DNA of 64,000 nucleotides from Planctomycetaceae bacterium (lineage in GTDB: Bacteria; Planctomycetota; Planctomycetia; Planctomycetales; Planctomycetaceae). The notes under the pieces were generated by a model. That model was not told where the DNA came from, made no database searches, and saw only the letters and a list, made by a program, of their open reading frames with translations. Location: the NCBI GenBank assembly GCA_021732785.1, contig JAKFUG010000048.1:1-64000 (forward strand). Direction: 5' to 3'. The first letter of the stretch is position 1, and each line of letters begins with the position of its first letter. This document shows positions 26,945 to 50,242 of this stretch, one piece after another. A program made the position numbers and the translations under genes.

Positions 26945-27438
26945 CGATGCTGACCGAGTGCAATTGGCCCGTGCAAATCGCTTTACAGCCGAACCTGACA
27001 TTCCTGAATTCACGCAGCGGGTCCGGAGAGAGTGTCGTTGGCGTTCGACGCCCGCCGAGAGTTTGGACCACGAGAATCAGGCCGACTCAAGAAGGGGGAA
27101 TTGCTCTCCCTCAGAGCGTTTCTAACGCTGTCGTCGTCGCGGGTCAGGAAGCCGGCTTCAGTCAGCAGGCATAACGTCTTTTTTGCACGTTTCGTCGCAA
27201 AAAAGGTATCTCCGAAGGTATCACCGAGCCCATAAACGACACAAGGCCGCATGAGCGGCCTTGTGCTAAGTCTTTTTGCAACAGTGAGTTGCATTCCAGT
27301 CGGGACAACAGGACGGCTATTGAACTTTTCTTGGCCGGCATCCGGGGCTGGGAAGCCGGAGTTCGGCGGCGGATGGATGACGGAAAGCCTTTCCCAGAAT
27401 GACCTTGCTTCTGTTATCGCTCGACAGGTCGGTGATCG
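26945..27438. other. Gene-free stretch between nuclease and merR
   Basis: About 490 bases with several overlapping open frames on both strands, none showing a recognisable domain. A strong hairpin with a T-run lies at 27240-27277. The mercury region starts to the right of it, so a boundary of an acquired segment could lie here, but no att-like repeat was found. Confidence 0.4.
27240..27277 (+). terminator. Intrinsic terminator hairpin
   Basis: Perfect 11-bp stem CACAAGGCCGC / GCGGCCTTGTG with the loop ATGA (27240-27265), followed after five bases by TCTTTTT. It reads as a terminator for plus-strand transcription, although no plus-strand gene is seen just upstream. Confidence 0.65.
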
Positions 27439-27855
27439 TCACTTGGTCTCCGACGTTTCTCGCAACGTCTCGATGACGTGGCAGCAGTCGAGCTGCTCCG
27501 TATCTTTGCATTTCTCCAGTGACTCCTTCAGCACTCGCTGAACATGACGCAAGTCCTTTAGCCGTTGATCCACTTCAGACAGCCGATCTTCAATGCGCGA
27601 CTGCACTTCTCGACAAGATGCAGCGGTGTTACTCGGCGTTGAAAGAAGCGCCTTCACGTCATCCAGCGTGAAACCGATGGCCTGCGCTGCCCGAATGAAC
27701 TTCAACTTGCGGAGTGACCCCTCGCTGTAGAGCCGATAGTTGCCCGCACTGCGGTCTTCCGGCTCGACCAGTCCCACCCGCTCGTAGTAACGAACCGTCG
27801 TTGTTGGTATCTCGGCTGCGTGCGCTAGTTGGCTGACGGTGTACTGCTTGCTCAT
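27439..27855 (-). CDS. merR: MerR mercury-responsive transcription regulator
   Basis: A 138-residue MerR-family regulator. The winged helix is at the N-terminus (YTVSQLAHAAEIPTTTVRYYERVGL), followed by the dimerisation helix. Cysteines at 81, 116 and 125 have the same spacing (35 and 9) as the Hg(II) ligands C82, C117, C126 of classical MerR, so mercury sensing is strongly suggested. It is divergent from the fusion transporter gene. A perfect palindrome sits between the -35 and -10 elements of the opposite promoter, as expected for a DNA-distorting MerR activator. ATG at 27855 has AGAGG directly adjacent, so spacing is poor. Confidence 0.9.
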   Translation of the reverse strand: MSKQYTVSQLAHAAEIPTTTVRYYERVGLVEPEDRSAGNYRLYSEGSLRKLKFIRAAQAIGFTLDDVKALLSTPSNTAASCREVQSRIEDRLSEVDQRLKDLRHVQRVLKESLEKCKDTEQLDCCHVIETLRETSETK

Positions 27856-27932
27856 CCTCTTGGCTTAACTCCCTGAAATTACAGGCGTTGTGACCATTAC
27901 GCGGGAACATTCAAGAATCCCGATAATCGGCC

Positions 27933-27966
27933 TTGACCTTGCACTCAAGTGCAAGGTCAATAATAC
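27933..27966 (+). promoter_or_regulatory. MerR-type promoter and operator
   Basis: TTGACC (27933-27938) as -35 and AATAAT (27959-27964) as -10 are 20 bases apart, the overlong spacer typical of MerR-family promoters. Between and over them lies a perfect inverted repeat with 13-base arms (TTGACCTTGCACT at 27933-27945, its complement at 27948-27960). Transcription runs towards the fusion gene at 28012. Confidence 0.8.
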
Positions 27967-28011
27967 AGAAAACGAACTCGAGGGGCAATTCAATTCAGGG
28001 GAAGAGACGCC

Positions 28012-29529
28012 ATGCCAGTTGGAGCGACAACCCAAACAACCTTGGTCTGCCCCTCGTGCGGAACCAAGGGAAAACGTGTCGGTCTGGCCACGTTGCGGGC
28101 CTTGCTGAAGGAAGAGTTCGCACACGAGTTCGGCGGCGAGCAGGCATCCTGCGATGCAAAGAGCAACGGCGGTTCTGGCTGCTCGCCGCTCGGGGGTGAC
28201 ACGGGCTGGCGATTTTGCGACTCGCAGGAGTGCGATGTCGTCTACTTTTCCGAGACCAGCGACCGCACCTTCCTGAAGTCTCACTTACAGGTGGCTGTCG
28301 GCGTCAAGGAGAGGGCTGGAGACCGGCCGCTTTGCTACTGCTTCGGCCACTCCGTCGCCAGCATCAAAGAGGAACTGCACACGAAGGGCCGCTGTGACGC
28401 CTTAGCGGACATCCGGGCGAATATGAAAGACCCCGGTTGCCGTTGTGAAACCGAGAATCCTTCCGGGGCGTGTTGCCTCGGGAGTGTCACCAAAGGCATT
28501 CAGATCGCCCAGAAGGAATTGGGAATGACAACCGCTCCAAGGGAAACAGCGCTCGTGCAGACCGCAGAAGAAATTCCGTCAAGTGCAGCCTCTTTTCAGT
28601 CGTCCACCGGTCGCGGCGAGAAGTTCGCCAAGATCGGCACGGTTGTCTCGGCGATCATGGCATCGGCCTGCTGCTGGTTGCCGCTGGCCTTGCTGGCGGT
28701 CGGTGTTTCCGGTGTCGGAATCGCCGCCACACTCGAAACGTATCGGCCGCTGTTCATCGTGGTGACGTTCGGCTTCCTGGCGGCGGCGTTTTACTTCACC
28801 TATCGGCCGAAGAAGGCGGCTTCCGAAGCTGGACACGGTTGTTGTCCCCCGGAGCCGGCCGCTGGGGCAGGCACCGACGCCAATTGCTGCTCCCCCGCTC
28901 AAAAGGGCCGATTCAGCATGATGGCCATGAACAAGGTCATGCTCTGGGCTGTGACAATTCTGACCGTCGCCTTTCTGCTGTTCCCGCATTACGTCGGAGC
29001 GCTCCTCGGCACGTCAGGCGGCCACGCCGTGGTCGTGACGCCGGACATGAACCGTGCCGTCCTGCAAATTGATGGTATGACCTGCCAGGGATGCGAAGCG
29101 GTGGCCGAGAAGGCGATGCGCACTGTGCCCGGCGTGCTCGCCGTCGAGGTCAGCCACGAGAAGAGGGAGGCGGTCGTCGGCGTCGACGAGTCTCGCGATA
29201 TTCCGCGTGATGAGATTTTGGCCGCTCTTGCGAAGGTCGGCTATCAAGGCCGCTTCGTGCAGGCACCCCCTGGTTTGGACAAAACGACCGGGGAGCAGAT
29301 CTCGCTCTCGACTGTCACCTTGAGCATATCGGGCATGACCTGTCCAGCCTGTGCCGTCTCGGCGCAGTCGGCCCTGATGAACCTTCCCGGCGTTCAGTCG
29401 GCCCGCGTCGATGCCAAGACCGGTGAAGCCCTCGTGCAATTCGACACCGACCAAGTGAAGCCCGAAGACTTAGCCAAGGCCGTCACCAATGTCGGGTTTG
29501 AGAGCAGCGTGAAGAAAGATGAGAACTGA
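28012..29529 (+). CDS. Fusion mercury transporter: CopZ N-domain, MerT-like, two HMA domains
   Basis: A 505-residue four-part protein. Residues ~10-160 match the zinc/[2Fe-2S] N-domain known from Archaeoglobus CopZ: LVCPSCGTKGKRV, WRFCDSQECDVVYFS, CYCFGHSVASI, then CRC and GACCLGSV. Residues ~205-330 match MerT: a first helix with the paired Cys in SACCWLPLALL (~219), a second helix with TYRPLFIVVTF, a Cys-rich loop GHGCCPPEP...ANCCSP, and a third helix. Two HMA (MerP-like) domains follow, with GMTCQGC (~354) and GMTCPAC (~441). Expected role: bind and import Hg(II) or shuttle soft metal ions under MerR control. No merA is seen next to it. The GGGGAAGAGACGCC leader before the ATG gives a usable ribosome site. 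Confidence 0.88.
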   Translation: MPVGATTQTTLVCPSCGTKGKRVGLATLRALLKEEFAHEFGGEQASCDAKSNGGSGCSPLGGDTGWRFCDSQECDVVYFSETSDRTFLKSHLQVAVGVKERAGDRPLCYCFGHSVASIKEELHTKGRCDALADIRANMKDPGCRCETENPSGACCLGSVTKGIQIAQKELGMTTAPRETALVQTAEEIPSSAASFQSSTGRGEKFAKIGTVVSAIMASACCWLPLALLAVGVSGVGIAATLETYRPLFIVVTFGFLAAAFYFTYRPKKAASEAGHGCCPPEPAAGAGTDANCCSPAQKGRFSMMAMNKVMLWAVTILTVAFLLFPHYVGALLGTSGGHAVVVTPDMNRAVLQIDGMTCQGCEAVAEKAMRTVPGVLAVEVSHEKREAVVGVDESRDIPRDEILAALAKVGYQGRFVQAPPGLDKTTGEQISLSTVTLSISGMTCPACAVSAQSALMNLPGVQSARVDAKTGEALVQFDTDQVKPEDLAKAVTNVGFESSVKKDEN

Positions 29530-30114
29530 GAAACTTACTTTTCCTATGGAGTGTTTGCGGAATGGTTTGAGCTGCGACTGGCCACAAATTATCTGGTCGA
29601 ACGTCAGCGAATGATTGGCCAGACCGGTTCGACGAAAAGTGGTACGGACGACATGTTAGTCGCTGCAAGAGTCGCCCTCTTCAAGCAAGACGGCTGGCTT
29701 CCCGATCTCACTGCATTCCCTCAGATGTGTGTCCCCACCGGATCATCCGTATTTTCGGCTAGGGAGGTGCTTCCCGGCGTAAATCTGGCCTGTAGCTGGG
29801 CCGTGACAGAGGTGATCGAGATCGAATGCAACACTGTGTTCAATGAGAAACACAACGGATCGACCAACTACCTGGAAACATTTCAAGGGGGCAACATCGA
29901 ATGCGACTTGGGCGAAAGATGGCTGCTGTTTACCGAGTCTGCTTTATTCGCCCCGTCCGGGAGCGTTAGCGCCCAGTTTGAGCACTATTTCCATGCGGGA
30001 GCACAATATTTCCTGACCCCCAACTGGCAACTCGACATTCAGTCATTCATGTATATCACTTCAAGTAATTCACGATGTCACGGAATTCGCCAGCCAAACC
30101 TACCACAGCCTTAA
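29530..30114 (+). pseudogene. Truncated MetA-like outer-membrane barrel protein
   Basis: Directly after the stop of the fusion gene, and in the same frame, the sequence reads ETYFSYGVFAEWFELRLATN, then RVALFKQDGWLPDLTAFPQM, ECDLGERWLLFTESALFAPS, HYFHAGAQYFLTPNWQLDIQ. This resembles the 'MetA-pathway of phenol degradation' outer-membrane barrel family. The N-terminal part, including signal and first strands, is absent, and the last ~20 residues diverge, suggesting a second lesion near 30075. A GTG at 29551 could start translation, but a working barrel is unlikely. Confidence 0.55.
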
Positions 30115-30128: not shown

Positions 30129-31715
30129 TTATTGCCCAATCTGTGCCGCTGGAAGAAGTTGCTTGGACGCTCGGTCTTTGACTTCGTTAAGCAACGCGCG
30201 TTGCCGCTGCGTCGAGCCACCTGGCTGTGATTGGATCGCGGAACCAATCGCGGCGGGGTTTAAGCCGCCCGTTAGCTGAAGTCCGTCGATTTCCGTCACG
30301 ACTTTTCGCAATTCGGTGAGCGCCTCGATGTATGCCACTCGGCTTTCGGCATACGCTTGCTGCGCGGCGAGTACATCGCGAAACGGCACTTCCCCGCCTT
30401 TGTATGATCGCTGAGTTAGTTTTAGATTCTCTGCCGTATTTGGCAGAATTGACTGCCCAAGACGTTCCGCCTGGACTCGACTCGTCTTGTATCGCCGGAA
30501 GGAATCGGCTAACTGGTCACGCAGCACAAGCTGTACTCGACAGATTTCCGACTGATCGGCTCGAATGTCAGCGTTTGCCTTATCGATATTTCCCTGGTTC
30601 CGGTTGTAGAAAGGGATCGGGAGGGCGACCAAGGTGGACACTGTGGTCGAGTTCGTGATCCGGTCATAGTCCGTCACATTTTGTATCGTGACGTTTGGAA
30701 TTGCCTGGGCCTTCGCGGAGTGAAGTTCGGCTCTGCCGTGGTCCAATTCCGATTCGGAAGCCCGTAGCTGAGGGCTTGCCGCGAGCAGTGTCTGCCAGCA
30801 CGATTCTTGATCCAGTGTTGGAATATCGCCTTCTAAGTCTCCGACCAGTGGAGTGATTTTCATTGAGGGCGTTCCCAGCATGATCGTCAACTGTTCCCAC
30901 GCGGCCTCGTATCGGTGGGTCGCGTCCGCCAGATTGATTCGCGAAGTCTCCAGCAGCACATTCGCTTGCAAAACATCGGACCGAGAAACCGTTTTCGCAT
31001 CAAATAGGGCTTGAGCGCTGGACAGGCTCTCGTCCGCCAGATGTTCTAATTGCCGAGCAGTCTCAACAACCTTTTGCGCCCCCAGCACTTCGTAGTATCG
31101 GATTTTCAGGTCATTCATGACGCGCATCCGCTGTGCTTCCTGATCCCATTGTAGGCGTTTGACCTCTTGCGAAGCGGACTGCTGCGCGAGCGTCAACTTC
31201 TTGGCCGTGACAATTTCCTGGCTGAAGAAAACGCCATTCGACTGTTTGGGCGCATTCTGATTGGCCGTGGAATTCAGATAGCCCAGTTGTGGATTCGGGT
31301 AGAGTCCCGACTGACGATAGAATCCGCGCTCCTGATCCACGGCTGCGGCGGCCTGCGATAACGTGGGGTTGTTCTGCATCGCGATCACTTCCAAGTCTGC
31401 CAGCGATAACACTCCATTGGCAGGAGCGGTTCCTGTCGCATCCCGACTCACTTCTTCCGGCCTGACGGTGGGAGCGGAGCTGACATCTTGATTGTCACTC
31501 ACCAGCCGAATTCTTGAACTGCCGGTTACCGCGTCGGGAGCTTCGTCTCTCCGTTCACTGTTGACGGCATCCGTCTCTGCGTCGGCTGTAGCGGATTCCA
31601 AGTCGACGGGCTTTTTCGCGGACACCGTGACCCGGTTGGAATGAGTGTGCGCGCAACCACAAACCAAGACTCCGAGAGTTGTGACAAGCAACCCCACCAG
31701 AACCAATCTCGACAT
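30129..31715 (-). CDS. TolC-family outer-membrane channel of the metal efflux system
   Basis: A 528-residue outer-membrane factor. An N-terminal lipoprotein signal (LVCGC, lipidation Cys about residue 21) is followed by a variable linker and two TolC repeats rich in long helices, with LADLEVIAMQNNPTLSQAAA near the start and GEVPFRDVLAAQQAYAESRV near the end. It is the last gene of the minus-strand operon coding for the RND pump, adaptor and metal-binding proteins, so it most likely forms the outer channel (CzcC role). GGGAGG lies about 8 bases before the ATG. It converges with the barrel fragment at 30114. Confidence 0.88.
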   Translation of the reverse strand: MSRLVLVGLLVTTLGVLVCGCAHTHSNRVTVSAKKPVDLESATADAETDAVNSERRDEAPDAVTGSSRIRLVSDNQDVSSAPTVRPEEVSRDATGTAPANGVLSLADLEVIAMQNNPTLSQAAAAVDQERGFYRQSGLYPNPQLGYLNSTANQNAPKQSNGVFFSQEIVTAKKLTLAQQSASQEVKRLQWDQEAQRMRVMNDLKIRYYEVLGAQKVVETARQLEHLADESLSSAQALFDAKTVSRSDVLQANVLLETSRINLADATHRYEAAWEQLTIMLGTPSMKITPLVGDLEGDIPTLDQESCWQTLLAASPQLRASESELDHGRAELHSAKAQAIPNVTIQNVTDYDRITNSTTVSTLVALPIPFYNRNQGNIDKANADIRADQSEICRVQLVLRDQLADSFRRYKTSRVQAERLGQSILPNTAENLKLTQRSYKGGEVPFRDVLAAQQAYAESRVAYIEALTELRKVVTEIDGLQLTGGLNPAAIGSAIQSQPGGSTQRQRALLNEVKDRASKQLLPAAQIGQ

Positions 31716-31938
31716 CGTAAAGCCCTCCCTGGCTGAGATAGGAAACGATCAACATTCCCGCGCAACTGGCATCCGACCTTCGCCATCGCACCGGTAGCTG
31801 ATGCTTCGAATGATCCTCTGAACTCAATTCATTTCTGATTTTGGTGGTTGTTTGCCATACATGGATTGGCGGCTAACTTCGCTTGGCGTTCCGGAACGAA
31901 CAGGAAGATGAAACCGCCCGTCATTTTTCCTAACGGTG

Positions 31939-32283
31939 TCAGTGCTTCGGCTTGTTGACAAAAGACCCGCTTGGTCCAACTAACCGGACCGGTTGCTCAC
32001 CACCGAGTTCCACCGTCTCCCAGAGTACTCGCGGCGAAAGCTTACCATCGGCGACCGGACGGACGATAAACGTCTTCGACTCAACGTCCGCGCGCGCGTC
32101 GGCCACGCTTTGGGACTGACGAAGCTTGTCCACAATCTTCTTTGCACATACCGGACACATTTTTTTCGTGGTGATCACTGTCTCCGTTTTCGGCCCTGCC
32201 GCCCAAGCGGCGGTTCCAGCTCCAGTGGCGACAGCCATCACGATGGCCACAAACACGTTTCTCGACAGTTGCAGAGAATCCAT
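31939..32283 (-). CDS. Exported single-HMA metal-binding protein
   Basis: A 114-residue protein from ATG 32283 (GGAGAGTGAGA just upstream; the longer frame from 32370 lacks such a site). A signal peptide (FVAIVMAVATGAGTAAWAA) is followed by a short HMA-like domain with the metal loop KKMCPVCAKKIVDKL. Unlike typical HMA loops (GMTCxxC) the first position is Lys-Met. It probably carries metal in the periplasm for the RND system. It lies between the metal-motif lipoprotein and the TolC-like gene in the same operon. Confidence 0.75.
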   Translation of the reverse strand: MDSLQLSRNVFVAIVMAVATGAGTAAWAAGPKTETVITTKKMCPVCAKKIVDKLRQSQSVADARADVESKTFIVRPVADGKLSPRVLWETVELGGEQPVRLVGPSGSFVNKPKH

Positions 32284-32408
32284 TCTCACTCTCCTAAAAG
32301 GGATTTCGGAAACGAACAGGGCGACCACAATACTTCCTTGGAGCAAATCGCTATTCCTCGCTCCAAACACATCAGAGCAGGAAATCGCCCGCTGTCACGG
32401 GGCGGCAA

Positions 32409-32765
32409 CTATTCCGCAGGCTTCGGGGCCTTCTTCCCATATTTCGCTTGGTATTGAGCAGCGAATTTTGCTTCGAGTTCAGGGTGACAAATGAAGCATT
32501 GCGACTCAGGTCGGTCATGTTCCTTGCACCAGTCGCCCTTTTTCTTGAGGTCGGCCGCCACTTTGCTGTTGCACTGGGCGCAGATTCCTTCCGGTACACC
32601 ATGTTCGGTGCACCACCAACCATCGTTTGGTTCCGCCTTCGACGCGGGAGTCGCCGTCGTTGGCGTGGACTTGCTGACTGTCGGAGTCGTTCCCGCCTGT
32701 CCGCAACCGCTTACGAACGCCGCAAACAAGACCAGCGTGGCTGTAGTCCAAAGTTTCATCCTCAT
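32409..32765 (-). CDS. Lipoprotein with two WCxEHxxPExxCxxC metal motifs
   Basis: A 118-residue lipoprotein: signal ending FVSGCG (lipidation Cys about residue 21), a Thr/Pro linker, then two copies of a Cys/His motif: WCTEHGVPEGICAQC and WCKEHDRPESQCFIC. The RND adaptor encoded upstream has the same motif near its membrane segment, so the lipoprotein looks like a free copy of that metal-binding part. Probable periplasmic metal carrier; metal unknown. AGGAG lies 7 bases before the first ATG (32765), which decides the start. Confidence 0.75.
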   Translation of the reverse strand: MRMKLWTTATLVLFAAFVSGCGQAGTTPTVSKSTPTTATPASKAEPNDGWWCTEHGVPEGICAQCNSKVAADLKKKGDWCKEHDRPESQCFICHPELEAKFAAQYQAKYGKKAPKPAE

Positions 32766-32791
32766 TCGTTACTCCTGCAAAGGGTAAATGA

Positions 32792-35700
32792 CTATTCAGT
32801 CGATCCTGCTAAAACCGGTTCAGCAGGTATTTCTTCGTCATGCGTTCGGCCTTGCTCATGAAGAGCCACCGGCGTATTGAAGATCAGATAAAGCACTCGC
32901 AGCACCAAGAGCGACATAATCATCGCCCCGATGACACCACCGATGACGACAGTTGCGAGAGGTCGTTGTACTTCTGCTCCTACACCTTCGCTAAAAGCCA
33001 TCGGCAGGAAGCCGAGACTCGCAACGAGCGTTGTCATTAACACCGGACGCAGACGCGTGATTGCGGCTTGCGTGACCGCTTCATCCAGAGGCAGACCTTT
33101 TTGACGAAGTTGTCGGATGTAGGAAACAAGAATCATGTCATCGAGTACAGCCACGCCCGACATGGCGATGAAGCCGATCCCGGCAGAGATCGAAAACGGC
33201 ATGTCCCGCAGCCATAAGGCGAAGATGCCGCCGACCCAAGCAAACGGAATGCCGGTGAACACTCGCAATGTGTCCACGATGTTGTGATAGGTCATGTAGA
33301 GCAGGCCGAAGATCAGGACGAGAGCCAGCGGGACGACGATCATCAAGCGAGTCTGAGCCCGCTGAAGATTCTCAAATTGCCCACCGTACTCGACCCGATA
33401 GCGTGCGGACGGTAAAGCAACATCTTTACCGATTTTCTGACGGGCTTCAGCGACAAAACTCCCCAAATCGCGGCCACGGACGTTTGAGGTGATCGTGATT
33501 CGTCGCTGTCCCCATTCCCGCGTGATGGTGGACGGCCCTTCGACGACTTCCACTGACGCGAGGCGAGATAGCGGGATGCGCTCGCCAGCGGGCGTAGAGA
33601 TCAGCATGTTTCCAATAGCCTGCGGGCTGGCCCGGAATTCTTCCGGCAGTCGCACGATAAGGGGAAACCGGAGCTGCCCTTCAACGACTTCGCCGAGTGG
33701 TTTGCTGCCAATGGATTCGACCAAATCAAGGACAGTCTGAGCGGACACTCCATAGCGAGCGACTTGGTCCTGGTTGACCTTAATTTGGAGCATCGGCTGA
33801 CCAGTGACTTGCTCGACATTGACATCAGCCGCCCCCTTGATGGCCTTTAGAATAGCTTCAATTTCCTGTCCTTTTTTCACGAGCAAATCGAAATCGTCGC
33901 CAAAGAGTTTCACTCCGAGGTCGGCCCTCACGCCCGACACCATCTCGTTCACCCGCATTTCGATCGGCTGCGAAAAGCCAAGCTTTACACCCTTGGATTC
34001 CCTTAACATCTCTTCTAGCTGCTCCGTTAAATGGGATTGCGTACGCGCCTTCTTCCATTGTGAACGAGGCTTGAGCGTAATGAAAATGTCCGTGAGCTCG
34101 ACGCCCATCGGATCGGTGGCGACCTCCGCTGTTCCGACGCGGCTCCAGACGTTTTCGACTTCGTCGGGGAAGGATGAGAGGATGACTTTCTCCATTTCCG
34201 TATTGGCACGAATCGAATCCTTGAGGTCGGTGCCCGCGAGCCGAATCACACCAACGACGATTGCTCCCTCAGAAAGTTTGGGCACAAATTCAGAACCGAG
34301 ATGCGGAGCAATCATGCCGAATGCCACTATCAGGACGCTGGCTGCGAATCCCATAACGGCCAACTTGTGGTGCATGGCGAACTGGAGAATCGGGTAGTGG
34401 ATCGCATGGGCGACCCGCATTAGGAATGGTTCGTGTTCCTCAATTTGTTTCGGCAAAAAGAAGCTCGCCAAGACCGGCATGAGGGTCAAAGACAGAATCA
34501 TCGACCCCATGAGGGCGAAGATCACGGTGAGGGCCATCGGGCGAAACATCTTTCCCTCGATCCCTTCGAGCGTCAGGATCGGCAGATAGACAATCATGAT
34601 GATGAGTTCGCCGAACATCGTCGGCTTGCGGACTTCGACGGCGGCGTCCCGAATGATGTCCAAGCGACTCTTGCCGCTGTTCGAATCGTGTGCCAGGTGC
34701 CGCACACAGTTCTCGATCATCACGACCGAACTATCAACCACGAGCCCAAAGTCGATGGCACCAAGGCTGAGCAGGCTGGCAGCGATGCCAAAGCGGTACA
34801 TGCCGGTGAAGGCAAACAGCATCGCCAATGGAATCGCCATCGCTACGATAGCGGCAGCCCGCAGGTTGCCCAGAAAAGCAAAAAGAACGGCGATGACGAG
34901 TAGCCCACCTTCGAATAGGTTTTTTCGCACGGTGTCGATTACAAAGTCCACCAACTGGGTGCGGTCGTAAACAGGCTTGACCTGAACATTAGGTGGCAAG
35001 CTTCCTTCGACGGACTTCAGCTTGTCCTTCATCGCCCAAGTGACTTCGTGGCTGTTTTCGTGCATGAGCATGAAGCCCAAGCCAAGAACAACCTCACCTT
35101 GCCCGTTAGCGGTGACGGCACCACGGCGAATCTCATGACCGATAATTACCTCGCCGACGTCGCTAACTCGGATGGGAACACCGTCCGTTGCGGTGACCAC
35201 GATCTGCCGAAGTTGTTCGATATTTGTGGTGCGGCCAAGACCCTGGACTAGCAGCATTCCGCTCTCATGCGTGATGTTGCCGCCGCCGACGTTGAAATTG
35301 TTTTTCTGGACAGCGTCAACCACCTGCTCGAAAGTCAGCCCGTGCTTGATGAGCTTCTCTGGATTGATGCGAATCTGATACTGCTTCTCGTAGCCGCCCC
35401 AACTGTTGATTTCTGCTGTTCCCCGCACCGTCCGCATTGGCGGCTTTATAACCCAATCGTGAACCGTTCGCAGCTCGGTCACGTCACTTCCCTGGCCTGT
35501 GACGATGTAGTGGAAGACCTCACCCAACCCGGTCGCTACCGGTCCCATCTTCGGACGTGCGATGCCCTGGGGCGTCTCGACGGTGGCGAGCCGTTCATTG
35601 ATGAGTTGGCGGGCAAAGTAGATGTCGACCCCATCTTTGAAGACGACAACGACCTGTGACAGGCCAAACTTTGAAATTGACCGAAGCTGCTCCAGCCCTG

Positions 35701-35935
35701 GCAAACCGCTGATGGCCTGCTCAATGGGAAAGGTGATCTGCCGCTCGACCTCTTCTGGGCTGAGCGCAGGAGCGACTGTGTTGATCTGTACTTGGACCGG
35801 AGTCGTGTCCGGGAAAGCGTCAATGTCGAGGTGCAGGAGTGAAAACACGCCCGCTACGCCGGCCGCCAATACACCCAATATGACCAGCATCCTGTGGTGA
35901 AGGGAAAAATCGATGACGCGATTGAGGAAATCCAT
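32792..35935 (-). CDS. CzcA-type heavy-metal RND efflux pump
   Basis: A 1047-residue inner-membrane proton/cation antiporter of the heavy-metal RND family. Twelve hydrophobic segments in the usual layout: one at the N-terminus (HHRMLVILGVLAAGVAGVF), a large periplasmic loop, then six in the first half. The helix-4 motif IDFGLVVDSSVVMIEN keeps the Asp-Asp-Glu set of pumps for divalent ions (Zn/Co/Cd), unlike the Cu/Ag type. It would export metal with the adaptor (35959-37584) and the TolC-like channel (30129-31715). It follows the adaptor by 23 bases and precedes the lipoprotein by 26, so co-transcription is likely. Confidence 0.92.
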   Translation of the reverse strand: MDFLNRVIDFSLHHRMLVILGVLAAGVAGVFSLLHLDIDAFPDTTPVQVQINTVAPALSPEEVERQITFPIEQAISGLPGLEQLRSISKFGLSQVVVVFKDGVDIYFARQLINERLATVETPQGIARPKMGPVATGLGEVFHYIVTGQGSDVTELRTVHDWVIKPPMRTVRGTAEINSWGGYEKQYQIRINPEKLIKHGLTFEQVVDAVQKNNFNVGGGNITHESGMLLVQGLGRTTNIEQLRQIVVTATDGVPIRVSDVGEVIIGHEIRRGAVTANGQGEVVLGLGFMLMHENSHEVTWAMKDKLKSVEGSLPPNVQVKPVYDRTQLVDFVIDTVRKNLFEGGLLVIAVLFAFLGNLRAAAIVAMAIPLAMLFAFTGMYRFGIAASLLSLGAIDFGLVVDSSVVMIENCVRHLAHDSNSGKSRLDIIRDAAVEVRKPTMFGELIIMIVYLPILTLEGIEGKMFRPMALTVIFALMGSMILSLTLMPVLASFFLPKQIEEHEPFLMRVAHAIHYPILQFAMHHKLAVMGFAASVLIVAFGMIAPHLGSEFVPKLSEGAIVVGVIRLAGTDLKDSIRANTEMEKVILSSFPDEVENVWSRVGTAEVATDPMGVELTDIFITLKPRSQWKKARTQSHLTEQLEEMLRESKGVKLGFSQPIEMRVNEMVSGVRADLGVKLFGDDFDLLVKKGQEIEAILKAIKGAADVNVEQVTGQPMLQIKVNQDQVARYGVSAQTVLDLVESIGSKPLGEVVEGQLRFPLIVRLPEEFRASPQAIGNMLISTPAGERIPLSRLASVEVVEGPSTITREWGQRRITITSNVRGRDLGSFVAEARQKIGKDVALPSARYRVEYGGQFENLQRAQTRLMIVVPLALVLIFGLLYMTYHNIVDTLRVFTGIPFAWVGGIFALWLRDMPFSISAGIGFIAMSGVAVLDDMILVSYIRQLRQKGLPLDEAVTQAAITRLRPVLMTTLVASLGFLPMAFSEGVGAEVQRPLATVVIGGVIGAMIMSLLVLRVLYLIFNTPVALHEQGRTHDEEIPAEPVLAGSTE

Positions 35936-35958
35936 CGTAGTTCTCGGCTCCGCTTGTT

Positions 35959-37584
35959 CTAATCCTTGTGACAGCCACAGCCAGCACCAAGGCTGCTGCG
36001 CAGCAGTTGGGCGAGCAGAACGGGACTTCCCTTGGTCACGACAACTTCGCCCGGAAGGACTCCCGCAAGTAGCTCTACGAACTGATCATCCCGCGCTCCG
36101 ACACGCACCTGACGAACGTGAAATACCTTAGGTGCGTCCTCTTTGAGGAAGTTCTTGTCCCGGACGAAGACGAAATGGGACTCTGGAGTCGATTGCACTG
36201 AGTCTCGGGGAACGACGATGGCGTTTGGCTCTTTACGCAGAATGATTTTACCTGTTCCGTACCCCTTGTCCCTCAATGTGCCGTCTGGGTTGGCAATCGT
36301 AATTCGCACTTGCAATGAGCGAGTTTTTCCATCGACCGCAGGACTGATCCAAGAGACGGAACCGGATACTTCTTGTTTGTGATCGTCAGTCTGGAATGTG
36401 ACCGGTAAGCCAAGTCGAACATACATCGCTTCCTCTTGACGCACATTGAGCAGCAACCACATTCGACTCGGATCGGCTACTGTGAAGAGTGTGGCGGATA
36501 CATCGACGACCTCGCCCGCGACGACTTCGGAGGCGACGACCAATCCGCCGAAAGGAGCACGGACGGGAATCAAGTTGGCCGTCTTGGTGCCTGCCGGTAA
36601 CGCGGCGATTACGGAAGTGGGAATGTCGAGAAACCGGAGATCGTCGGCGACCTTCTCGGGATCAGCAGACTCCAAGTCATTAGGGATCTCGAAACCGAGA
36701 TTAGCAATCGCTTGGCGACTTGAAATAAACCCGATTTTCGCCTCTTGGAATGCGGATTCAGCATCAAGTAGCACTTTGCCGGCGACGGCTCCCCCTACAG
36801 ATGCGGTTCGCAACCGTTCGACTGTCGTCTTCCGCAATTGAAGCTGCACAAGCGCCTGCAGAAGCTGAGCTTTGACCTGACCTACCTGCGAGGCATCGAT
36901 CAGGGCCAGTATTTCTCCTGGGGCGACTTTTTCTCCGACAGTTTTGAAGACGATGGCTACCGAACCCGGAACCCTTGCGGAGAGGTGAGCGACATGTGTC
37001 GGATCGAAATTCAACTGTCCATTGGCGCTTATTGTTTCCGCCATGGAATGTTCCTGCACCACATCCACATCAATACCGGACCTGTTCACACTTTCAATTG
37101 AAGTGAACTGGATGCGGTTCTTGTGGAGCGCGTCCCGGCTGCTGTTCTCCGATCTTGCGACAAGAGCAATGGCCTGGGTGGTGTCGTATTTCGGAAGCTG
37201 CGGTTCTCCTTCAACCTGAGCGAGCTCTGGGTGGTGAATGACGCACTCGGCAACTCCATGCTCACGGCAGAACCCAAACGGTTTTGCTTTCGGATAGAGT
37301 TCGGGCTTACATTCGATACATTGCGACTCGGGAACAAGATGTTCCGCGCACCAGTCGTGTGTCGCGACATCTGTCGTTCCCAGAAACTCGGACATCTTCG
37401 GCATCTTCCAGCCGGTGTGATGACCAAAATACATGACGCCGCCGAGAAGTGAGAACACGGCGATGTTTGGAATGGCCTTGAGGGCGGTCAGCCACCAGCG
37501 TCGTCGTGGCCGAACGAGTGGCTGATGCTCAACCTTTGGCGGCGTGGTCGTTGGACATGCAGGGGCTGAAACAGATGCAGACAT
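35959..37584 (-). CDS. Heavy-metal RND periplasmic adaptor with N-terminal Cys/His motif
   Basis: From ATG 37584 (GGAGAGAG upstream; the longer frame to 37710 lacks a site) the adaptor is 541 residues. A membrane segment (about 30-55) is followed by WCAEHLVPESQCIEC and a second, degenerate copy FCREHGVAEC with HHPEL. The usual membrane-fusion parts follow: lipoyl-like half (GQLNFDPTHVAHLSARVPGS), helical hairpin, second lipoyl half (IPVRAPFGGLVVASEVVAGE) and beta-barrel. It links the CzcA-like pump to the TolC-like channel. The Cys/His motif is shared with the operon's lipoprotein. The protein ends GAGCGCHKD, a third possible metal site. Confidence 0.9.
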   Translation of the reverse strand: MSASVSAPACPTTTPPKVEHQPLVRPRRRWWLTALKAIPNIAVFSLLGGVMYFGHHTGWKMPKMSEFLGTTDVATHDWCAEHLVPESQCIECKPELYPKAKPFGFCREHGVAECVIHHPELAQVEGEPQLPKYDTTQAIALVARSENSSRDALHKNRIQFTSIESVNRSGIDVDVVQEHSMAETISANGQLNFDPTHVAHLSARVPGSVAIVFKTVGEKVAPGEILALIDASQVGQVKAQLLQALVQLQLRKTTVERLRTASVGGAVAGKVLLDAESAFQEAKIGFISSRQAIANLGFEIPNDLESADPEKVADDLRFLDIPTSVIAALPAGTKTANLIPVRAPFGGLVVASEVVAGEVVDVSATLFTVADPSRMWLLLNVRQEEAMYVRLGLPVTFQTDDHKQEVSGSVSWISPAVDGKTRSLQVRITIANPDGTLRDKGYGTGKIILRKEPNAIVVPRDSVQSTPESHFVFVRDKNFLKEDAPKVFHVRQVRVGARDDQFVELLAGVLPGEVVVTKGSPVLLAQLLRSSLGAGCGCHKD

Positions 37585-37744
37585 GCGCTCTCTCCGATCG
37601 AAAGCCGGTAATGCTCTATCCAAATACGGTACGACAAAAAAACGTCGTGACGTGCGAGCAGAAACGTGGCGAGGATAGGCCGGGTGAGGACAATCACGAG
37701 TCGTGACCATCGACTCAGCACGACAACGCCGAGCAGAGGCTGCT

Positions 37745-38236
37745 TTAGCAGCGAATGACGACCGTCGAAATGACGGTCAATGCGAAATCACGGAGAGAAG
37801 GTGGACTGCTCCAGCGGACGGGCAGCAATCGAGGGGCCACAATCTCTTTGCCGGTGAACATGCACGGCTGAAAGGCAACAAGCTGAGCGAATCGCTCGGT
37901 GTCGGAGATCGTCGAGTTTCGAGCAACCGAAGGCGGCTGCTCAGCCGAAGTGGCGATCAAGATATGCGTGCATCCACACGGACTGGACGGCGACATTTGT
38001 CCAGTGATTTTGACCGCTCCGCCTTGTCGACAGTCGCATTTTTTCGCTTTGCAAGAACAGCAGGGACCATCCTCTTCGACCGGCGTTATTTGTCGTTGGC
38101 AGCACGTGCAGGACGCCGGGCCTGAGTCCAGACACCAAAAGGAACCATCGTTGCTGATGCACAGATAGACAGATGCTCCGCCCCCGGTAAGGAGTTGCGT
38201 CGCTATCAGCATCAAAATGCACAACGATTTCGCCAC
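37745..38236 (-). CDS. Cys-rich exported protein at head of metal efflux operon
   Basis: Not assigned to a named family. From the GTG at 38236 (GGACGAG upstream) it is 163 residues: a hydrophobic segment (SLCILMLIATQLLTGGGAS), then a Cys-rich stretch with CISNDGSFWCLDSG, CTCCQ, GPCCSCKAKKCDCRQGG and CGCTH, then a tail with RDFALTVISTVVIRC. The Cys clusters suggest metal binding outside the cytoplasm. It is the first gene of the minus-strand run leading into the RND adaptor (160-base gap), so it may act as a sensor or buffer. The open frame extends to 38413 but the upstream part looks non-coding. Confidence 0.6.
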   Translation of the reverse strand: MAKSLCILMLIATQLLTGGGASVYLCISNDGSFWCLDSGPASCTCCQRQITPVEEDGPCCSCKAKKCDCRQGGAVKITGQMSPSSPCGCTHILIATSAEQPPSVARNSTISDTERFAQLVAFQPCMFTGKEIVAPRLLPVRWSSPPSLRDFALTVISTVVIRC

Positions 38237-38519
38237 CGAGGCTCGTCCTTCCGAAAATGGAGTGATTGTTGATTTTATCGGCAGACAGCTTGTGAAACAA
38301 TAGGGAAACCTCGAGATTTGGCTCAAGTGTCGTCTTTGGACGCTCTCATCTGGGCAGAGGGCTTTGGATGGGTGCGGAGACAAGCGTCGAACCTGCACCC
38401 CCCAGTAACGCAAACCACCGGTTCTGTTGGGCGTACCGGTGCGGACGGGAATTGATTGAATTCAATTGACATCGGCCCGCAAATAGACAATGGGTTTCCT
38501 CATAGAGAGGAATTCCAAA

Positions 38520-39119
38520 TTGGAAGCATTGAATCATACGGTTTTCTTGATGATTAACGCTGGCGCTTCACCGGCCCCTGAAATCTTGTTCTTCGCAACT
38601 TTTCTGGCTCAGTGGCTCATTGGCGGTGTGCCGCTCTTATTAGCGGGGTTGTGGCTGTGGGGGACTCGCGGCGACCGTGCGGTAGTGCTTGTGGCCACCA
38701 CCAGTATCGCTTTCTCGCTTGCCTGCAACCAGCTGGTCCGCTCTCTCTGGCCGCATCCCAGGCCGTTTATGATAAGTCTCGGACACAATTTCCTTTCACA
38801 CCGGCCAGAAGCGTCGTTCCCGAGCGATCATTCCACTGCGTTCTTTGTCCTGGGACTGTGCCTCATGCTGACTTCGCTGCCCAGACTCGGCGGTATCGTC
38901 GTCCTCCTTGGTATCGTAGTTGGGTGGTCGCGTATCTACTTGGGAGTGCATTTTCCTTTCGACATTTTCGGGTCGATGTTATTTGCGATCCCAAGCAGTT
39001 GGCTTGTGCTTTTCGTGTTCACACGCTGGCGACTCGGTGAACGTGTGCTGGATTTTCTGGAACGCCTCTACCGACTTGTATTCGCAATGCCGATCACCAA
39101 AGGATGGGTTCGCCCCTAG
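38520..39119 (+). CDS. PAP2-family membrane phosphatase (undecaprenyl-diphosphatase-like)
   Basis: A 199-residue membrane protein from a TTG start with AGAGGA 8 bases upstream, giving LEALNHTVFLMINA, the usual beginning of BcrC-like proteins. The longer frame from ATG 38490 has no ribosome site. PAP2 motifs: RSLWPHPRP, PEASFPSDHSTAFF, SRIYLGVHFPFD. About six membrane segments. Such enzymes recycle undecaprenyl diphosphate; copies of PAP2 and lspA genes often travel with cadmium operons in proteobacteria. It converges with the lspA-cadA-arsR cassette. Confidence 0.85.
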   Translation: MEALNHTVFLMINAGASPAPEILFFATFLAQWLIGGVPLLLAGLWLWGTRGDRAVVLVATTSIAFSLACNQLVRSLWPHPRPFMISLGHNFLSHRPEASFPSDHSTAFFVLGLCLMLTSLPRLGGIVVLLGIVVGWSRIYLGVHFPFDIFGSMLFAIPSSWLVLFVFTRWRLGERVLDFLERLYRLVFAMPITKGWVRP

Positions 39120-39279
39120 CATCATAGCCCTCCGCTTCCCGTTCCCGTTCCCGGCATGGAAATGGAGCTGCAAAGTAATCCGTCGAAAATCGCCGTGACG
39201 TGCCGGAACCTGGACTCAAGGCAGGGCTTGGTTCCTGGTCGATGCGTTGCCAATCCATTGGAATGGGTTCATGGAACAT
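39094..39279 (-). pseudogene. Partial copy of the 3' end of the methylase/helicase gene
   Basis: The minus strand reads WQRIDQEPSPALS where the large methylase/helicase gene at 42551 ends RQRQRIEQEPSLS and stops. Plus-strand positions 39214-39251 and 42549-42585 align with 34 identities over 38 columns, three mismatches and one gap; the gap destroys the stop codon. Only about 40-60 bases of the similarity are clear. The two copies bracket the lspA-cadA-arsR cassette in the same orientation. Confidence 0.55.
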
Positions 39280-39328
39280 CCTCGGCGGATTGATCGATGG
39301 CTTTTGGACAGTTGCTGAGGCTGCGTGC

Positions 39329-39775
39329 TTATCTAGGTCGATAGATAAGCATTATAGCGCCAATGAAGATGGCACAATCAGTGACATTGAAAGCAGGCCA
39401 ATGGTGGCCGAAGGCGTGGAAATCCAAATAGTCCGCTACTGCACCGAAGCGCATACGATCAATGATATTGCCCGTTGATCCGCCGATAATAAGGCCAAGC
39501 GCTGTTGCAGTAAGTGGACACGAAGTGCGAAAGAGCCAGCGTAGCAGGATAAGACTGATTACCATACTTAAGCCGGAAAGCAGCCACTGGCCGTAGGCGA
39601 GGCCGTGAAGCATGCCAAAGCTGATACCGCGATTCCATATCTCCACTAAGTTAAAAAACGGTAAAACTTCGATGCTATGGCGCTGCGCGGCAACAGCATC
39701 AAAAGCCGTCACGCGCGCAAACCGATGGCCGAGGATGACCAGCGTCGCAAGAAAAAGATACCGCCCACGTTTCAT
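39329..39775 (-). CDS. lspA: Signal peptidase II-like protein of the cadmium cassette
   Basis: A 148-residue lipoprotein signal peptidase. Conserved parts: IEVLPFFNLVEIWNRGISFG, GGSTGNIIDRMRFGAVADYL (first catalytic Asp) and HWPAFNVTDCAIFIGA (second Asp). The N-terminal Asp-Gln motif usual near residue 15-20 is replaced by LGHRFARVTAF, perhaps from compensating frameshifts. Its first codon overlaps the cadA stop by 4 bases (ATGA), so translation is coupled. Its stop lies in a 9-bp inverted repeat (GCTTATCTA...). Such lspA copies are commonly found behind cadA in proteobacterial metal islands. Confidence 0.85.
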   Translation of the reverse strand: MKRGRYLFLATLVILGHRFARVTAFDAVAAQRHSIEVLPFFNLVEIWNRGISFGMLHGLAYGQWLLSGLSMVISLILLRWLFRTSCPLTATALGLIIGGSTGNIIDRMRFGAVADYLDFHAFGHHWPAFNVTDCAIFIGAIMLIYRPR

Positions 39776-41916
39776 TTCTTAACTTTCAGCAGGCGCAGGC
39801 CGTTGAATACGACAATCAGACTCGCGCCCATATCGGCGAAAACGGCCATCCCGAGAGTTGCGTGGTTGGCAAAATTAAGTGCCAGAAATACTGCCTTGAT
39901 GCCAATCGCCAGGGTAATATTCTGTCTTAAGATGCTGCCTGTTTTGCTGCTCAGAGTGATAAAAAGCGGAATGCGGCGCAGATCATCCTCCATTAACGCC
40001 ACGTCCGCCGTTTCCAGTGCCGTATCGGTACCTGCCGCGCCCATCGCAAAGCCGATGGAGGATTTGGCAAGCGCAGGCGCATCATTGATCCCATCCCCTA
40101 CCATGCCGACCTCGCCATAACGCTGCTGCAATTCTTCAATGGCGGCGAGCTTGTCTTCCGGCAGCATATTGCCCCGTACATCCTTGATGCCGACTTCTGC
40201 GGCAATGGCGTTGGCGGTATTCTGATTATCGCCCGTCAGAAGGACGCAACGCACCCCTTGCGCCTGCAGGGTCTTAACCGCCTGCACGCTAGAATCGCGG
40301 ATGGTGTCTGCCACGGCAAAGATGCAGAGCGGCTTTTGTTCGGTAGCAAGTGTTACTACCGTCTTGCCTTCTTTTTCGAGCTTTTCCAGCGTCGCTTCCA
40401 AATCGGGCTGACAAATGCCGAGTTCTTCGATCAGCCGGTGATTTCCAATGTAATACAGCGTGCCATCGATTACGCCTTTGACGCCGCGCCCGGTAATGGA
40501 TTCGAAACTCATGACCTCCAGCAACTGATATTGCTGCTGTCCCAAAGAACCGACAATGGCATGAGCAACCGGATGCTCGGAATGCGAATTGAGGCTTGCC
40601 GCCAAATGCAGGCATGTTTCCTTTGACTGGTTATCAAGCGGCAAAATATCCGTCACCTTCGGCTTGCCATGCGTCAGCGTGCCAGTCTTATCGAGAGCAA
40701 GAGCTTTGAGTTTGCGACCTTCCTCCAGATACACGCCGCCCTTGATAAGTATGCCGCACCGCGCGGCGGCGGCAAGGCCGCTGACTACCGTGACCGGCGT
40801 GGAGATCACCAGCGCGCACGGGCAGGCGATCACAAGCATGACCAGCGCCTTGTAAAACCACGGAGTGAAGGCCGCGCCGAAGGCCAGTGGTGGAGCAGCG
40901 GCAAGCAACACCGCCAGCAACACCACGGCGGGCGTGTAATAGTGTGCGAAGCGGTCAACGAAGCGCTGCGTGGGCGCTCGCTCGCCTTGCGCCGCCTGCA
41001 CAGAGCGGATGACGCGCGCCAACGTCGTATTGCCCTTATTGGCCGTGACGCGAAACTCAAATGAGCCTCGCTCGTTAATCGTACCAGCAAATACCGCGTC
41101 GCCTGTCTTCTTTTCCACCGGCATGCTCTCGCCGGTGATTGGAGCCTGGTTGACGGTGGACTGGCCGCTGATGATTTTACCGTCAAGCGGGATGCGCTCG
41201 CCCGGCTTCACAAGCACGATGGCTTCCATCGCCACATTGTCCACCACCGTCGTTTGCCAACTGCCGTCTGGCTGCTTGACGCTGGCCGATTCCGGAGTCA
41301 TTTCCATCAGGCTGCGAATGGCATTACGCGCGCGGTCGAGAGAATAAGCTTCGATCAACTCGGCCAGTGCGAAAAGACACGTCACCATCGCCGCTTCCGG
41401 CCACTGGCCAATCAGAATTGCACCGACAATAGCGATCATCATCAGGAAATTGATATTGAGTGTGAAATGGCGCAGGGCCACGAGCCCCTTTTTGACGGTG
41501 TCGATGCCCCCGGTGGTAATAGCCAGGAGAGAAAGCCCGATCACCAGCGGCGAGCTTTCCTGATGGGTAGTCCAACTGATAATTTCGGCAATGAGCGCCA
41601 TCGCGCCGGAGAATCCCACAAGCAGTTTGGTTTTAAGGGATACGGCTTCCACATGCTTGGCAGGGGCATCGGCTTCACTGTCTCGGCGTTCGGGCTCCAT
41701 TCTAAGTTCTTGCAAAGCGGTAAATACCGCAGCGTCATCAGCCAGATGATGGGTGACTGTCAGCTCCCGCTGTATCAGATTGAAGCGAAGCGATTGCACC
41801 CCTTCGATGCCTACCAGCCGGTGGCGAATCAGCTTTTCCTCACTGGGGCAATCCATCTTGTGGACGGTGTAAACAGTTTCCTTTGGGTGGGTAGAGTTGG
41901 GGATCATACGAGTCAT
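39772..41916 (-). CDS. cadA: Cd/Zn/Pb-exporting P1B-type ATPase
   Basis: A 714-residue heavy-metal P-type ATPase. The N-terminal metal domain is atypical: KMDCPSEE replaces the GMTCxxC loop, as in a known subset of Cd/Zn pumps. Further landmarks: actuator motif ITGESMPVEK, membrane metal site VIACPCALVIS (CPC near 365), phosphorylation site ALDKTGTLTHGKP (Asp near 409), nucleotide-domain HP in SEHPVAHAI, hinge GDGINDAPAL. It would pump Cd(II), Zn(II) or Pb(II) out of the cytoplasm. AAGGAAGG lies about 8 bases before the ATG. It follows arsR and a tiny ORF and overlaps lspA. Confidence 0.95.
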   Translation of the reverse strand: MTRMIPNSTHPKETVYTVHKMDCPSEEKLIRHRLVGIEGVQSLRFNLIQRELTVTHHLADDAAVFTALQELRMEPERRDSEADAPAKHVEAVSLKTKLLVGFSGAMALIAEIISWTTHQESSPLVIGLSLLAITTGGIDTVKKGLVALRHFTLNINFLMMIAIVGAILIGQWPEAAMVTCLFALAELIEAYSLDRARNAIRSLMEMTPESASVKQPDGSWQTTVVDNVAMEAIVLVKPGERIPLDGKIISGQSTVNQAPITGESMPVEKKTGDAVFAGTINERGSFEFRVTANKGNTTLARVIRSVQAAQGERAPTQRFVDRFAHYYTPAVVLLAVLLAAAPPLAFGAAFTPWFYKALVMLVIACPCALVISTPVTVVSGLAAAARCGILIKGGVYLEEGRKLKALALDKTGTLTHGKPKVTDILPLDNQSKETCLHLAASLNSHSEHPVAHAIVGSLGQQQYQLLEVMSFESITGRGVKGVIDGTLYYIGNHRLIEELGICQPDLEATLEKLEKEGKTVVTLATEQKPLCIFAVADTIRDSSVQAVKTLQAQGVRCVLLTGDNQNTANAIAAEVGIKDVRGNMLPEDKLAAIEELQQRYGEVGMVGDGINDAPALAKSSIGFAMGAAGTDTALETADVALMEDDLRRIPLFITLSSKTGSILRQNITLAIGIKAVFLALNFANHATLGMAVFADMGASLIVVFNGLRLLKVKK

Positions 41917-47878: not shown

Positions 47879-48192
47879 TTGATCGACGTGTGACCCACGA
47901 GATACGCCATTGCGTTGTCGAGAGTCGGCAGTTCCCCGTCGTCCTGTGGAGACAAGGAGCGCAAACGATCCTCCAGTTCCTTGAGGGCCAGTTCCAGAGC
48001 CTGGCTGTTGATCTGGCTCGGGTCGCTGTCCGGCATCGCCTGGGAGAGGGTTTCCTTCCAGGATTCGTGATTGTCCTTCAGTTGCTGGGCGCAGACCTCC
48101 AACGTCGGAAGCAACCGTCGAGTGATCCGTAGCAGGTCGTAAAACTCCGTTTGCTGTTTCAGCAGTTCCAGAACGATGGTCTTGTATTGCAT
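47875..48192 (-). CDS. Small conserved mobile-element protein (105 aa)
   Basis: Begins MQYKTIVLELLKQQTEFYDL, then RRLLPTLEVCAQQLKDNHES and PSQINSQALELALKELEDRL. Mostly helical. An AAAGGAG seven bases before the ATG makes this a real gene even though it lies inside the longer open frame of the methylase-helicase. Similar short proteins sit before large methylase genes on plasmids and integrative elements, in my recollection; function unknown. Its TGA overlaps the proposed CTG start of the next gene (CTGA). Confidence 0.7.
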   Translation of the reverse strand: MQYKTIVLELLKQQTEFYDLLRITRRLLPTLEVCAQQLKDNHESWKETLSQAMPDSDPSQINSQALELALKELEDRLRSLSPQDDGELPTLDNAMAYLVGHTSIN

Positions 48193-48660: not shown

Positions 48661-48683
48661 GGGATGCCCATCTCAGTGTGGGT

Positions 48684-50231: not shown

Positions 50232-50242
50232 AATCGGCCTCC

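Follow-up and report, generated by a model that had tools for sequence, protein, structure and literature searches.

A MerR-controlled CopZ-N/MerT/HMA fusion in Planctomycetota, a candidate mercury import-and-capture protein found mostly without mercuric reductase

In this work, we analyzed a 64,000-nucleotide stretch of a Planctomycetaceae genome (GenBank assembly GCA_021732785.1, contig JAKFUG010000048.1, positions 1 to 64,000 of the forward strand), hereafter the window, which carries a gene for a 505-residue protein composed of an N-terminal domain of the type known from Archaeoglobus fulgidus CopZ (CopZ-N), a MerT-like membrane part and two HMA domains (Table 1). An earlier reading of the letters of this DNA by a model (the sequence-only reading) had described these modules as one gene, and this was borne out: the open reading frame (ORF) contains zero internal stops, and all its Pfam matches lie above the curated cut-offs (zf_CopZ, 52.0 against 28.4 bits; MerT, 44.9 against 32.9; HMA, 100.2 against 24.8, over two stretches), as does its NCBIfam match to CopZ_Nterm_CC (NF047645; 103.3 against 100). 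The proposed kinship of the N-domain was likewise confirmed by a sequence match to the A. fulgidus CopZ N-domain structure 2HU9 (E 1.1e-12), to which Cys69, 74, 108, 110, 145, 154 and 155 align well; Cys13 and Cys16 fall in a weak first stretch only, and Cys143 has no counterpart. A zinc-type site (Cys13/16/69/74) and a [2Fe-2S]-type site (Cys108/110/145/154/155) are predicted, the labels following the cluster-binding cysteines of A. fulgidus CopZ. The MerT-like part displays vicinal cysteines 220-221 in helix 1, and the pairs 277-278 and 292-293 in the loop preceding helix 3.

Table 1. Features of the fusion locus, in window coordinates.
Feature	Position	Strand	Basis
Left edge of the conserved cassette, with inverted copies downstream of the fusion or merA at other loci	27298..27370	+	DNA comparison
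Divergent MerR-family regulator gene, 138 aa	27439..27855	-	Pfam, NCBIfam, DNA comparison with relatives
MerR-type promoter, TTGACC-N20-AATAAT, perfect dyad with 13-bp arms, 20-bp spacer	27933..27964	+	Sequence, conservation in relatives, chance control
Fusion gene, 505 aa, order CopZ-N / MerT / HMA / HMA	28012..29529	+	ORF translation, Pfam, NCBIfam, family alignment
CopZ-N domain, residues about 9-165	28036..28506	+	Pfam, 2HU9 alignment, fold search
MerT-like part, residues about 201-335, three predicted membrane helices	28612..29016	+	Pfam, family alignment, predicted model
HMA domain 1, Cys358/Cys361	29047..29256	+	Pfam, model, alignment
HMA domain 2, Cys444/Cys447, in part of the family	29308..29511	+	Pfam, model, alignment
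First codons of the next operon gene, ATGAGAACTGAGAAACTTACTTTTCCT, common to L032 and L034	29519..29545	+	DNA comparison; identity stops at 29545

The divergent regulator belongs to the MerR family and bears Cys81, Cys116 and Cys124/125, as had been stated; the claim that these form a mercury triad went too far, since the cysteine triad of mercury MerR is also present in zinc and cadmium regulators and is thus not diagnostic. No metal-specific cut-off was reached (Hg(II)-specific MerR, TIGR02051, 112.1 against 150.85; zinc-type ZntR, PRK09514, 108.4 against 143), and the regulators of merA-bearing relatives score alike on TIGR02051 (112.7 at locus L034, 111.9 at L151 and 104.5 at L033). The regulators of the closest relatives are 94% and 86% identical to that of the window. 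Between the regulator and the fusion gene lies the promoter, TTGACC-TTGCACTCAAGTGCAAGGTC-AATAAT, whose first base, position 27933, is exactly the start of the region given by the sequence-only reading; with at most one mismatch allowed, the pattern, drawn up after the promoters of the window and its relatives had been seen, matched once in the window and never in 100 shuffles.

Comparison with related loci indicates that the window locus retains the front of what was a longer mer operon; the rear genes, merA among them, were lost directly behind the fusion gene. The nearest relatives of the window fusion (90% and 84% identity) continue into further mer genes and merA. DNA identity to L032 is 93-94% over positions 27300-29545 (L032 being without some 50 bases near 28140-28190) and to L034 is 86% over 27437-29545; both matches stop 16 bases behind the fusion gene, and the remaining mer genes follow only in the relatives. 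In the tree, the window groups with L032 (support 98/80) and L034 stands next (100/99); because the window thus sits inside a merA-bearing trio, parsimony places the loss of merA on its own branch, while merA-bearing rows are scattered across the fusion tree as a whole. The absence of an adjoining mercuric reductase, noted by the sequence-only reading, holds for the entire genome (99.6% complete), in which no MerA exceeds the TIGR02053 cut-off; a hidden MerA elsewhere was considered and rejected, six matches having been found, the best four of which reach 272-343 bits against a cut-off of 454. The ratio of nonsynonymous to synonymous rates (dN/dS) of the fusion is 0.32 to L032 and 0.23 to L034, with 27 synonymous and 27 nonsynonymous changes on the window branch and 14 and 11, respectively, on that of L032. 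This substitution pattern appears unlike that of a free-running relic, though the merA loss may be recent.

The sequence-only reading had taken the four modules to be normally found apart, which did not hold, as the same order is common in Planctomycetota. The fusion was detected at E 1e-98 or better in 11 of 99 genomes (the window's own and its relatives; the copy of genome G018 is cut at a contig end), and a search of a genome-contig collection yielded 30 loci, the closest 87% identical and the farthest only distantly related. Further, 39 of 392 planctomycete genomes match the 505-residue protein at E 1e-20 or better, and these, sorted by eye according to the matched range, comprise 27 with CopZ-N and MerT, 9 in which MerT-HMA alone is matched and 3 in which CopZ-N alone is; CopZ_Nterm_CC exceeds its cut-off in 31 of the 392, covering all but one (G228) of the 27 fusion genomes. 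These searches ruled out that the fusion is unique to the window's genome. The genome surveys covered Planctomycetota, with other groups seen through the genome-contig collection and plasmids. Altogether, 45 distinct CopZ-N/MerT fusions were aligned in 47 rows, two of which are duplicates (L122 of L050, L124 of L051); Planctomycetota, on which the searches centred, contributed 43 of them as records or genomes, and the other two (L035 and L047) belong to metagenome-assembled genomes labelled Bacteroidales and Porticoccaceae, whose binning is taken as labelled. Judged by this alignment, the same-order fusion is a widespread planctomycete family and not a unique gene.

In this alignment, Cys108, 110, 145, 154 and 155 of CopZ-N, 220 and 221 of helix 1, and 358 and 361 of the first HMA domain are invariant in 47 of 47 rows; Cys13 is likewise found in 47, Cys69, Cys74 and Cys292 in 46, and Cys16 and Cys143 in 36, while the second HMA domain is confined to part of the family. 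A MerR-family gene was located within 2.5 kb upstream in 39 of the 45 rows having at least 900 bases there (39 of 43 without the two duplicates). The promoter form TTGACN-N20-NATAAT occurs in 25 of 49 rows, including the merA-bearing L032, L033, L034, L038 and L116 and many merA-less loci, and we count this sharing between both kinds of loci for a mercury role; the site was not found in the other 24 rows, which correspond to 21 distant members, L039, L044 (128 bases upstream) and L065.

Genomic context ties the family to mercuric reductase. True MerA, over the TIGR02053 cut-off, was found in 4 of the 392 planctomycete genomes, all four belonging to the 39 with a match (Fisher p 8.5e-5) and all having merA no farther than 1.2 kb from it; merA accompanies a full fusion in G328 and G310, with one gene between, and a MerT-HMA gene without CopZ-N in G180 and G297. 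In the genome-contig collection, merA encoding a C-terminal CysCys lies downstream of the fusion in L032, L033 (split across two frames), L034 and L038, with scores of 510.5 and 502.9 against 454 for L034 and L038, and merA also follows the fusion in L151 (equal to G328) and L152 (equal to G310), both over the MerA cut-off; the downstream flank is shorter than 1300 bases in 8 of 47 rows. At L032, fusion and merA are separated by a MerC-like gene (Pfam MerC, 43.7 against 27.6) and a double-HMA gene. The reductase is nevertheless rare. The fusion is held by 33 genomes (11 plus 27, five being common to both surveys), and MerA exceeds its cut-off in 2 of them and in none of the other 31; 12 of the 33 are less than 90% complete, and among those at least 90% complete 19 of 21 have none. 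The genomes without MerA include the single-contig genomes G006, G039 and G200, and by these counts the merA-less state is the usual one for fusion genomes. This rarity agrees with a table of a 2021 survey that lists one MerA for Planctomycetes (PMC8261052). Moreover, the fusion of L036, which no merA adjoins, is 90-92% identical to those of L033 and L038, which merA adjoins; merA thus comes and goes around a near-identical fusion, a point in favour of one and the same metal with and without merA.

The gene merB exceeds its cut-off in 9 of the 392 planctomycete genomes. In G118, a genome without MerA over the cut-off, the order is MerR-fusion-merB, with merB 1.2 kb behind the fusion; in G114, merB lies on a different contig from the two fusions. 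Taken together, the context and associations support a mercury role for the fusion. We also considered CopZ-N as a replacement for the N-terminal HMA domain of MerA (NmerA), which the MerA proteins beside fusions do not have; because the MerA of L056, beside a CopZ-N-less MerT-HMA gene, is likewise without it, this idea was not used as evidence.

CopZ-N also occurs as a stand-alone protein on plasmids. The N-domain query retrieved 28 plasmid records. One is the K2D fusion; the remaining 27 belong to Deinococcus, Bacillota, Cyanobacteria, Methylomonas, Stenotrophomonas, haloarchaea and other hosts, and 22 of these loci were examined (H37, H39, H50, H53 and H55 being left out). A MerR-family gene lies upstream of CopZ-N in 16 of the 22; it is the immediate neighbour in 12 of these and is separated from CopZ-N by merF or merT-merP in the other 4. 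Mer structural genes occur within 5 kb in 7 of the 22: merB at H32 and H33, merF at H44 and H45, MerT-MerP at H48 and H56, and merA with merB at H49. The latter is the one locus of the 22 with an annotated merA; an oxidoreductase near H33 has no C-terminal CysCys. Both Methylomonas plasmids display the order MerR-MerT-MerP-CopZ-N without merA, that is, the modules of the window protein as separate genes (at H48 by scanned families; at H56 with CopZ-N scanned and MerT and MerP read by eye). H54 lies beside YnfA, H57 has no annotated mer gene, and the H58 record is unannotated. A look-up of the plasmid regulators named Hg(II) as the sole metal among the 60 rows listed, most rows carrying a general name, and leaves the metal unfixed. 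As separate observations, plasmid pK2D_1 (CP036351.1 37939-39174, equal to L092 9001-10236) carries a one-HMA fusion that is annotated as 'merA: Mercuric reductase' and shows only CopZ-N, MerT and HMA parts, and another contig of the window's own genome holds a second, stand-alone CopZ-N-like ORF (G000:C49:13797-14174) scoring 72.6 bits, under the cut-off of 100.

Compared with known systems, the window protein shares with MerT/MerP and the MerTP fusions (NF033556, TIGR02052, Pfam MerT) the three-helix MerT with its helix-1 cysteine pair and the pairs in the loop before helix 3, a C-terminal HMA in the place of MerP, and MerR control; unlike the MerTP fusions, it adds CopZ-N at the N-terminus and, in some family members, a second HMA, occurs mostly without MerA, and misses the NF033556 cut-off (152.6 against 180). 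With A. fulgidus CopZ it has in common a zinc/[2Fe-2S]-type N-domain joined to HMA, but it inserts a MerT membrane part between the two and stands in a mer-like context. NF047645, named 'putative iron-sulfur cluster-binding metallochaperone', represents the same domain as a separate small protein, encoded on plasmids behind MerR, MerT-MerP or MerF, or ahead of merB, whereas in the window it is one domain of a membrane protein. The MerT/CopZ fusion-like selenoprotein (NF045683) also joins MerT to HMA, but its 235 positions include no CopZ-N, 'CopZ' referring to the HMA part, and the window protein scores 99.2 against its cut-off of 375. Finally, the regulator, promoter type and uptake parts resemble those of the MerA-dependent Tn21/Tn501-type mer operons, from which the window and most fusion genomes differ by the missing reductase, and the window by a promoter spacer of 20 bp against the 19 bp given in PMC11049809. 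Thus, from the parts of a mer system, the window holds a MerR-family regulator with a long-spacer promoter and MerT/MerP uptake, and is without MerA.

The reading that we favour, probable in our view though far from assured, is that the fusion acts, under MerR control, as a single-chain relay for mercury import and capture that ends on CopZ-N. The HMA domains, presumably outside the membrane with CopZ-N inside, if the fusion adopts the topology of MerT, would take up Hg(II) in the periplasm in the role of MerP and pass it to the cysteine pair in membrane helix 1, from where it would move to the cytosolic cysteine pairs of the MerT part and finally to CopZ-N, whose zinc/[2Fe-2S]-type cysteine cluster would be the end acceptor. 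Where merA follows, CopZ-N might hand Hg(II) to MerA; without merA, as in the window after the loss and in most fusion genomes, CopZ-N itself would keep Hg(II) harmless by storing it, reducing it slowly, or passing it to thiols or exporters. Because MerT-MerP in cells without MerA should raise mercury sensitivity, the coupling of import to CopZ-N in MerA-less genomes points to CopZ-N as an acceptor that would render import tolerable. The sequence-only reading had proposed a self-contained mercury handling system; the mercury role is supported by genomic association, the locus is the front of a longer operon that has lost merA, and self-containment is plausible from the 31 of 33 fusion genomes without MerA, though unproven. 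As that reading also proposed, the iron-sulfur domain may donate electrons or sense redox state, with trapping or hand-over of the metal no less possible.

Several observations weigh against this relay. MerT without MerA would be expected to leave cells more sensitive to mercury, going by the title of a 1979 work by Nakahara. The zinc-regulator score of the window's regulator nearly equals its MerR score, neither reaching its cut-off, and the plasmid loci H38 and H52 adjoin ArsR and P-type ATPase genes. When the 27 full fusions are taken by themselves, the link to MerA weakens (2/27 against 2/365, p 0.025); for merB, fusion genomes show no significant enrichment (2/27 against 7/365, p 0.12), 7 of the 9 merB genomes having no CopZ-N. 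Among the 9 MerT-HMA-only genomes, 8 have no CopZ-N at E 0.001, and 6 of these 8 are also without MerA (in the ninth, G386, a CopZ-N match lies on the same contig just ahead of the MerT match); since such genomes with neither protein exist, a CopZ-N acceptor is not the whole story. The merA loss is perhaps too recent for the dN/dS of the window to attest function without MerA. Lastly, the structure prediction that the sequence-only reading had suggested gave AlphaFold models of low confidence for the whole protein and the N-domain (mean pLDDT about 60); a fold search did return 2HU9 on top (E 5.6e-7), and because of TM-scores of 0.34/0.45 and a root-mean-square deviation of 13 no metal-site geometry was taken from it.

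Next in standing, and unlikely without being negligible, is that the locus is a stranded uptake remnant: with only the front of a mer operon left, a fusion without merA would give no resistance and would be decaying or merely tolerated under MerR control. The end of DNA identity to merA-bearing relatives at 29545, the placement of the merA loss on the window's own branch and the lack of MerA elsewhere in the genome would fit such a history, as would the occurrence of MerT-HMA without CopZ-N and without MerA, because of which the merA loss need not mean that CopZ-N replaces MerA. Decay is argued against by the intact gene, promoter and regulator, by the lack of a nonsynonymous excess on the window branch, and by the merA-less state being usual in the family, also among the more complete genomes.

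That the protein handles a different soft metal (Cu, Zn, Cd or Pb), for which mer-like parts were recruited, seems to us quite improbable. The ambiguous regulator scores, the RND efflux set and heavy-metal P-type ATPase gene near the fusion, and the nature of A. fulgidus CopZ as a copper protein would favour it; the merA association, the one merB neighbour, and a regulator and promoter shared between the closest relatives and merA-bearing loci point to mercury instead.

Less probable still is that CopZ-N acts as a redox enzyme, its [2Fe-2S] electrons reducing incoming Hg(II) in place of MerA. Reduction of Hg(II) takes two electrons, and Hg(II) attacks Fe-S clusters, both of which speak against it; further, some close relatives retain merA, and no electron-input partner stands out, as beyond the fusion, MerR and MerA-like genes no gene cluster is common to more than 5 of the 35 loci compared. 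In its favour, MerA is absent from most fusion genomes, a passage of a review (PMC7558416) describes Cu(II) reduction by the iron-sulfur part of A. fulgidus CopZ, which shares the N-domain, and a passage of PMC8261052 ascribes MerA-less Hg(II) reduction to low-potential ferredoxins. A sequencing artefact or chance fusion, with a break or stop between the modules, is ruled out by the identical module order in 45 distinct loci and the evidence of selection.

Other features were observed around these loci. A metal-efflux island adjoins the fusion (window 30129-41916), with a TolC-like gene (30129-31715), an RND pump (32792-35935) and an adaptor with a Cys-rich N-part (35959-37710) assigned by sequence look, and a heavy-metal P-type ATPase gene (39772-41916) assigned by family scan. 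Beyond it, 42551-58936 is likely an integrative mobile element, by sequence look only, with putative ORFs for a large helicase/methylase-like protein (42551-48301), a relaxase-like protein (51762-54422), an ArdC-like protein (55792-56694) and a tyrosine integrase-like protein (57536-58936). Inverted recurrences of the left-edge stretch, of 30-70 bp, lie at L034 9543-9574, L044 1183-1244, L047 6277-6347 and L033 10539-10599, and resemble mobile-element end repeats, as assessed without a transposase search. At L033 10539-11473, a second, window-like MerR/fusion copy with 81-86% DNA identity starts at the end of the fetched piece, so that one genome seems to hold two versions. Exported-looking double-HMA proteins between fusion and merA (L032 6451-7107, HMA by Pfam; L151 6314-6871) are possible extra periplasmic mercury binders. 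A gene for a small YnfA/UPF0060 membrane protein is found repeatedly next to MerR, fusion, merA or stand-alone CopZ-N genes, and is a candidate mer-linked gene (L033, L035, L038, L046, L047, L151 8481-8813, L152 3699-4034 and plasmid H54, that is, L110; assigned by Pfam for L151, by record annotation for L110 and by sequence look for the others).

No published description of the fusion, or of CopZ-N in mer loci, was found in a literature search that left subscription papers largely outside, nor any paper combining CopZ, MerT and planctomycete, or CopZ family protein, mercury and MerR, or bearing the NF047645 product name. Passages of PMC13188914 list a '(2Fe-2S)-binding protein (copper chaperone Copz family)' and a 'putative mercuric transport protein' among selenoproteins, with no joint function given there. 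The 2021 survey reports 906 genomes with merB and no merA, whose cells must handle the released Hg(II) otherwise, and in the parts consulted leaves the MerA-less state open; 'CopZ' and 'iron-sulfur' are absent from its main text (PMC8261052).

The value of these findings lies more in the repeated MerR-CopZ-N association without MerA than in the single gene. Fusion-bearing, mostly MerA-less genomes raise the question of how such cells detoxify mercury, and the fusion and the MerR-CopZ-N pairs are a specific candidate for the missing Hg(II) step in part of the merA-less organisms. Extending the relay beyond the fusion, we propose tentatively, and with more doubt than confidence, that CopZ-N may be an unrecognised end-point of MerA-independent mercury detoxification. 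In this view, a MerR-induced zinc/[2Fe-2S] protein would sequester or reduce Hg(II); in Planctomycetota it is joined in one chain to the uptake parts that serve it, and on plasmids of Deinococcus, Cyanobacteria, Methylomonas and Bacillota its gene stands next to those for MerT-MerP, MerF or MerB. Such an end-point cannot be the sole answer to MerA-less survival, because in Planctomycetota CopZ-N is missing from those 7 merB genomes and from the 6 MerA-less MerT-HMA genomes. If true, the proposal would explain in concrete terms the survival of some organisms that have mer uptake or merB genes and no merA; and should CopZ-N hold or reduce mercury, mer-system annotation and the estimates of mercury-volatilising microbes would have to be revised.

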